Below, one piece after another: positions 62,118-62,469 of a DNA stretch of 64,000 nucleotides. Under the pieces are notes generated by a model. It made no database searches and was not told the DNA's origin. It was given only the letters and a program-made list of their open reading frames with translations. Source of the stretch: Halanaerobium praevalens DSM 2228. GTDB lineage: Bacteria > Bacillota > Halanaerobiia > Halanaerobiales > Halanaerobiaceae. The position numbers were made by a program, and so were the translations under genes. Positions within the stretch are counted from its first letter, which is position 1. The number at the start of each line of letters is the position of its first letter. The stretch covers positions 2,232,001 to 2,296,000 of the forward strand of contig NC_017455.1 of NCBI RefSeq assembly GCF_000165465.1, given 5' to 3'.

Positions 62118-62195
62118 GATATCTACCTCCCTTTCATTTTAATAATTCACTATTAAAACAAAAATTCCTGCTTTTATTGCTTTAAATTAATAAAA

Positions 62196-62219
62196 GCCCA
62201 CTCTAAATTAAGAGTGAGC
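62196..62219 (-). terminator. Terminator downstream of rplI and the inserted element
   Basis: On the minus strand GCTCACTCT and AGAGTGGGC pair (one G-U) around 6 bases, followed by TTTTATTAATTT. It ends the ribosomal transcript after crossing the IS200/IS605-type element. Confidence 0.75.
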
Positions 62220-62225
62220 TTAGTT

Positions 62226-62427
62226 GTGAACCTCACCACCTAAATTAAAAATTTAGATGGAGCTTCGCTATACTTCATATACTCAAAAAAACAAGTATAT
62301 TACTAGTAGCTTTTTAGTGAAGTTTGTAGTTTAAGTTTCCTCTACAAATGTAGATTACCTTATTCACTAGGGGCTGTCCACAAACCCATTATCCCTCATA
62401 TCCACCTAATACAGTAGTTTAGATGGA
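62226..62427 (-). mobile_element. Transposase-less IS200/IS605-type element
   Basis: On the minus strand the first hairpin (62427-62401, TCCATCTAA...TTAGGTGGA) and the last (62260-62236, CCATCTAAATT...AATTTAGGTGG) share the stem CCATCTAA/TTAGGTGG. Both pair fully only on this strand, with G-U pairs. The last is preceded by GAAGCT and followed by GAGGTTCAC, like the 3' end of TnpB guide RNAs and the right end of IS605. Between are nested stems (TAGTGAA/TTCACTA, TTTGTAG/CTACAAA). No transposase frame fits in 200 bases. Confidence 0.6.
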
Positions 62428-62469
62428 GTTTTTTTTGAATGTTTTAGATAAATAATTTTAAGTTTAAAT

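Follow-up and report, generated by a model that had tools for sequence, protein, structure and literature searches.

Results

A transposase-less element between rplI and its terminator

The window analysed here, a stretch of 64,000 nucleotides of Halanaerobium praevalens DSM 2228 (contig NC_017455.1, positions 2,232,001 to 2,296,000), contains close to its right-hand end rplI, the gene for ribosomal protein L9 (62470..62913, minus strand; assigned by Pfam). Downstream of rplI and on the same strand lies a 222-nt block (62226..62447, minus strand as sense strand), delimited from its copies and their boundaries. In the minus-strand reading, the block begins CTAAAACATTC right after the sequence TTTAT (62448..62452) and finishes GAGGTTCAC. 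The junction TTTAT|CTAAA recurs at about 40 loci whose flanks are unrelated; insertion there had taken place 3' of this fixed short target without target duplication. The initial annotation had put the block at 62226-62427; the block is real, but its right-hand bound had to be moved to 62447, since the left end starts CTAAAAC directly after TTTAT. Beyond the element, the terminator-like hairpin reported earlier was recovered on the minus strand (62221-62194); it resembles an intrinsic terminator, and a terminator-like hairpin is similarly placed relative to rplI in congeners.

The element is too short for a transposase gene, and no open reading frame of at least 60 aa lies inside it. Terminal inverted repeats are absent, and subterminal palindromes related to IS605 ends are present. 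The left end (LE; 62401..62447) contains the hairpin TCCATC...GGTGGA at 62401-62427, and the right end (RE; 62226..62262) consists of a hairpin and a tail. Both end stems previously described, CCATCTAA/TTAGGTGG, were found in the block, as was the GAAGCT...GAGGTTCAC setting of the last hairpin. The proposed minus-strand preference of the end hairpins was borne out: their folding energies (as DNA) were -6.4 and -3.6 kcal/mol on the minus strand versus -5.1 and -2.1 kcal/mol on the plus strand, and 0 and 4 of 200 shuffles, respectively, folded as well on the minus strand. The whole minus-strand RNA had a folding z of -2.76. With this value and its 99-100% identical copies at other places in the genome, the block lies well outside what chance would produce. 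In the window copy, the bottom C-G pair of the left hairpin is gone through an internal deletion, and the right hairpin has a T-T mismatch near its base, at a pair that is free of mismatch in the compared relatives. A remnant of the tnpB 3' end (62367..62396, minus strand; RDNGFVDSP followed by the stop codon TAG) was recognized by homology to RDNGFVDNPSRLRVS, the C-terminus of a TnpB from a relative, genome G007. We conclude that the block is almost certainly a palindrome-associated transposable element (PATE), here a transposase-less internal-deletion derivative of a Halanaerobiales IS605-type (IS200/IS605-family) element. There is equally little doubt that the kept parts are LE, the last tnpB codons, an omega RNA scaffold and RE, with some leader-like sequence retained in full-length copies only.

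The rplI site was compared at the species level with that of 11 other species of the genus. Conservation of the block at the same place would, according to the initial annotation, mean a native RNA; the block was absent from the locus in all 11. A terminator-like hairpin closely follows the rplI stop codon in nearly all of these congeners; in many of them, and in the window too, a GCAGGAATTTT-like motif comes after that hairpin. By this comparison, the window has the congener order, with the element pushed between the rplI stop codon and the terminator. Before insertion, the junction would have read TTTAT-AACTAAGC, uninterrupted. The layout of rplI stop, element and terminator fits the presumed co-transcription of the element with rplI.

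Copies in the genome

A search of the genome (one contig, 2,309,262 bp) revealed three further copies, making four in total, 98-100% identical in their shared parts. Two are full length: one of 439 nt at position 502028, beside a thiD-like gene, and one of 445 nt at position 2077340, near a uvrB-like gene (both gene names were given by eye from the sequence). The third, at 75114, has lost its left end and adjoins a UPF0236 gene; we take UPF0236 to be the ISLre2 transposase family. The lack of any other copy of either end had been named beforehand as grounds for rejecting the element, and other copies of both ends are present. The claim of a transposase-less element with single-strand-transposition ends after rplI, carrying a TnpB RNA end, has thus withstood both tests set for it. 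Compared with the full form, the window copy is missing 217 internal bases, and the deletion junction shows no clear repeat. No match to the full-length copy was obtained in phage and plasmid collections. When a single-hairpin model (described below) was run over the window, significant scores occurred only at the two ends of this element, and the other, "first" element implied by the initial annotation was not located. A leader-like segment (GTGAATATATGGAGTT..GTAAAATATTCAAGG) was observed near the left ends of IS605-like elements of different hairpin types (L032, L033, L047 and the full-length L003 and L004).

A covarying omega RNA scaffold

In ISDra2, the tnpB 3' end plus RE is the known source of reRNA (PMC8612924). 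Both parts, with a conserved fold, are present in the element, and the segment 62226..62375 (minus strand) matched a covariance model with five covarying stems at 158.5 bits. In an unfitted alignment (n = 6), 14 pairs changed on both sides; none of 500 shuffles was as high, and slid structures were far lower. In the model-fitted alignment of 22 distinct sequences, which is partly circular, 22 pairs changed on both sides, above 500 of 500 shuffles and all slid versions. The outer stem, for example, is TAGTGAA/TTCACTA here, CAAGAT/ATCTTG in G007 and AAACGAA/TTCGTTT in G024, while stem 3 occurs as GCTA/TAGC, ACTG/CAGT and TCTC/GAGA. When the window RNA was folded for minimum energy, the covarying stems were obtained again. 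We conclude that ca. 150 nt of the element are predicted, with strong covariation support, to be a structurally intact TnpB guide-RNA (omega RNA) scaffold. A two-way fold had been proposed for this RNA; its stem TTTGTAG/CTACAAA is not conserved, and covariation was seen instead in the competing stem, TCTAC/GTAGA.

The would-be guide AACTAAGCTCACTCTTAATT (62206..62225, minus strand) belongs to the host flank and was placed from its position beside the RE tip and the reRNA rule (PMC8612924). This guide would correspond to the 5' arm of the terminator hairpin of rplI (62194..62221, minus strand), with which it overlaps. No cognate TnpB was found in the genome, where the best TnpB was 30-35% identical and had other ends.

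The parent family in relatives

DNA matches to the element were obtained in 20 of 41 relatives across the order, and right-end model matches in 18 of 38 genomes. In its RE region, the element shares 67-73% identity with IS605 elements of G007, G018, G022, G004 and others. The G007 elements carry a 417-aa TnpB (OrfB_IS605/Cas12f1-like) and a divergent Y1_Tnp TnpA between matching ends. An intact parent with exactly the ends of the window element was not found among the relatives, the nearest being ca. 70% identical in RE.

The parent IS605 family and one 271-nt PATE of the same make-up have been published from Halanaerobium hydrogeniformans (PMC7290912). A right-end model match in G007 (843504-843689) falls on that PATE, published at 843,418, and because the coordinates coincide we take G007 to be H. 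hydrogeniformans. The two PATEs are alike in genus, ends and make-up (LE hairpin, last tnpB part, whole RE). They differ in that the window RE is only ca. 70% identical, fewer tnpB codons remain, and the window element is one of four copies. The kind of element is therefore already known, and the 222-nt element is a new example within a published type. The LE and RE hairpins were read as dissimilar in that work, and RE was not seen as a guide RNA (PMC7290912). At the well-preserved loci inspected here, LE and RE have one common stem, CTCCATC/GGTGGAG, which, as we map it, supports RE structure 3 of PMC7290912 over its favoured structure 2. At one locus, L088 (G032:C129), the right end contains tandem repeats of GGAAGCTCCATCTAAATGAAGCAGCT-like units, which suggests replication slippage at the hairpin.

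Single-hairpin elements of 59-66 nt

Most copies escaped a strict single-hairpin pattern; a covariance model covering TTTAT, the LE foot, one hairpin and the RE tail (59-66 nt) was used instead. Single-hairpin forms, in which the LE half of the common stem is fused to the RE half, were found scattered through the order. In G013 there were 18 model matches (for example L050:1501-1560, L077:537-602 and L078:597-661), most of which had higher scores than complete LE or RE ends elsewhere. This genome had no matching tnpB and one 38-residue scrap of tnpA, and its best right-end match, at 56 bits, fell short of a full score. The loop TCTGTGATTTAGG is common to the single-hairpin elements of G013, G006 and G017, is slightly changed in the H. 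praevalens genome, and occurred in none of the full-length ends inspected. Two origins are conceivable: independent trimming of many insertions between the shared stems, or movement of the single-hairpin form itself. These elements keep the left guide and lack the right one, and are hence predicted to be non-excisable by the standard rule.

Further single-hairpin loci were seen in G015 (L071-L075) and G021 (L086). Decayed relics are present in the H. praevalens genome itself at 2038986-2039045 (L228), 1438718-1438776 (L227) and 1243376-1243434 (L008), the last of which has come to resemble a terminator hairpin, complete with a T run. L087 (G008:C14:285651-285737) is a single-hairpin form with a variant of the 28-nt insertion known from type 2 right ends, and its sequence makes derivation from an element with such a right end likely. 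Two longer single-hairpin model matches in G007, L195 and L209, may be L087-like.

Predicted cleavage sites and their guides

In IS608, the left cleavage site C_L TTAC pairs with the guide G_L AAAG, and the right site C_R TCAA with G_R GAAT (PMC5934647). Placed by this rule, the equivalents in the window PATE would be TTAT (62448-62451) with AAAA (62429-62432) and TCAC (62226-62229) with GAAG (62263-62266, just outside RE), with site and guide both differing from IS608 in the fourth base at either end. These pairings were deduced from position and are consistent across loci. Resident IS605 copies of this genome (L052, L053, L054 and L055) have TTAC/AAAG and TCAA/GAAT, as IS608 does, and CCTCGCC hairpins. 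No matching TnpA was found in the genome; the resident TnpA is 31% identical to that of the parent family. Resident TnpA and TnpB both fall into a different clade.

Discussion

In the proposed course of events, a Y1 TnpA supplied in trans would have bound both minus-strand hairpins and cut beside TTTAT and TTCAC; the single strand would have been excised as a circle and then joined 3' of TTTAT. A TnpB acting in trans with the omega RNA would cut the emptied donor site, and retention of the element would thereby be promoted.

The block might instead be a structured RNA native to the 3' untranslated region of rplI, such as a regulatory switch with two folds; this reading would account for the position between rplI and its terminator and for folding better than that of shuffles. 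As an origin it is refuted by the 11 congeners whose rplI locus lacks the block; together with copies at three unrelated loci, no Rfam match to the element and a second fold that is not conserved, this leaves it a negligible chance. In two other readings the element is still served by resident proteins. The omega RNA might be an active guide RNA that a resident TnpB uses in trans, not a relic, as its intact scaffold and several open resident TnpB frames would allow. This is very improbable given resident TnpBs so distant from the parental one (30-35% identity), which adjoin a right end of different sequence, and a window guide that is an arm of a terminator hairpin. Slightly less improbable, yet still poorly favoured, is a PATE that remains mobile, moved in trans by resident IS605 TnpA: there are four resident TnpA reading frames (133 residues), and the 98-100% identity of the copies implies that they are recent. 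The resident elements keep other hairpins and other cleavage sites (CCTCGCC; TTAC and TCAA); it is thus unlikely that their TnpA acts on the PATE, and its 31% identity to the TnpA of the parent family likewise argues against this reading.

Since no matching TnpB or TnpA was found in the genome, the element has probably been left stranded after a recent spread. The copy in the window most likely no longer moves and is carried as a passenger in the 3' untranslated region of rplI; loss of the bottom pair of its left hairpin may have disabled it as well. A broader scheme can be offered only as a speculation that we consider rather unlikely: the end hairpins would be mobile alone as 59-66 nt elements, the longer PATEs would be trans-served guide-RNA carriers whose retention needs a TnpB encoded elsewhere, and the genome would hold orphan guide RNAs of a lost nuclease.

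A precedent for the single-hairpin form has been published. In Haloquadratum walsbyi, 52-bp terminal-only PATEs are suspected of mobility, and the PATEs of that organism are likewise transposase-free, with near-terminal IS605-related palindromes, no target duplication and terminal-only forms (PMC3119063). They differ in having an archaeal host; the likeness is one of description, and the passages considered here describe no guide RNA. Free-standing IS605 stem loops on Borrelia plasmids, some of which follow genes, are likewise end hairpins that have no transposase gene with them; they are single and lack the paired ends and omega RNA of the window element (PMC2775950). IS608 and ISDra2 share with the PATE one-strand hairpin ends and insertion 3' of a short target, IS608 also the guide and cleavage tetranucleotides and ISDra2 a guide RNA from the right end; in contrast, they carry tnpA and tnpB and have the targets TTAC and TTGAT, respectively, instead of TTTAT (PMC5934647, PMC8612924). 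C_R is TCAA in IS608 and TCAC here (PMC5934647).

The minimum DNA that an HUH transposase needs for movement could be tested cleanly on the single-hairpin elements. For the published Halanaerobium IS605 family, the analysis provides a covariation-supported omega RNA structure in a right end previously read otherwise, and the copies in H. praevalens record that an IS605 derivative bearing a guide RNA spread recently and now seems to be stranded.
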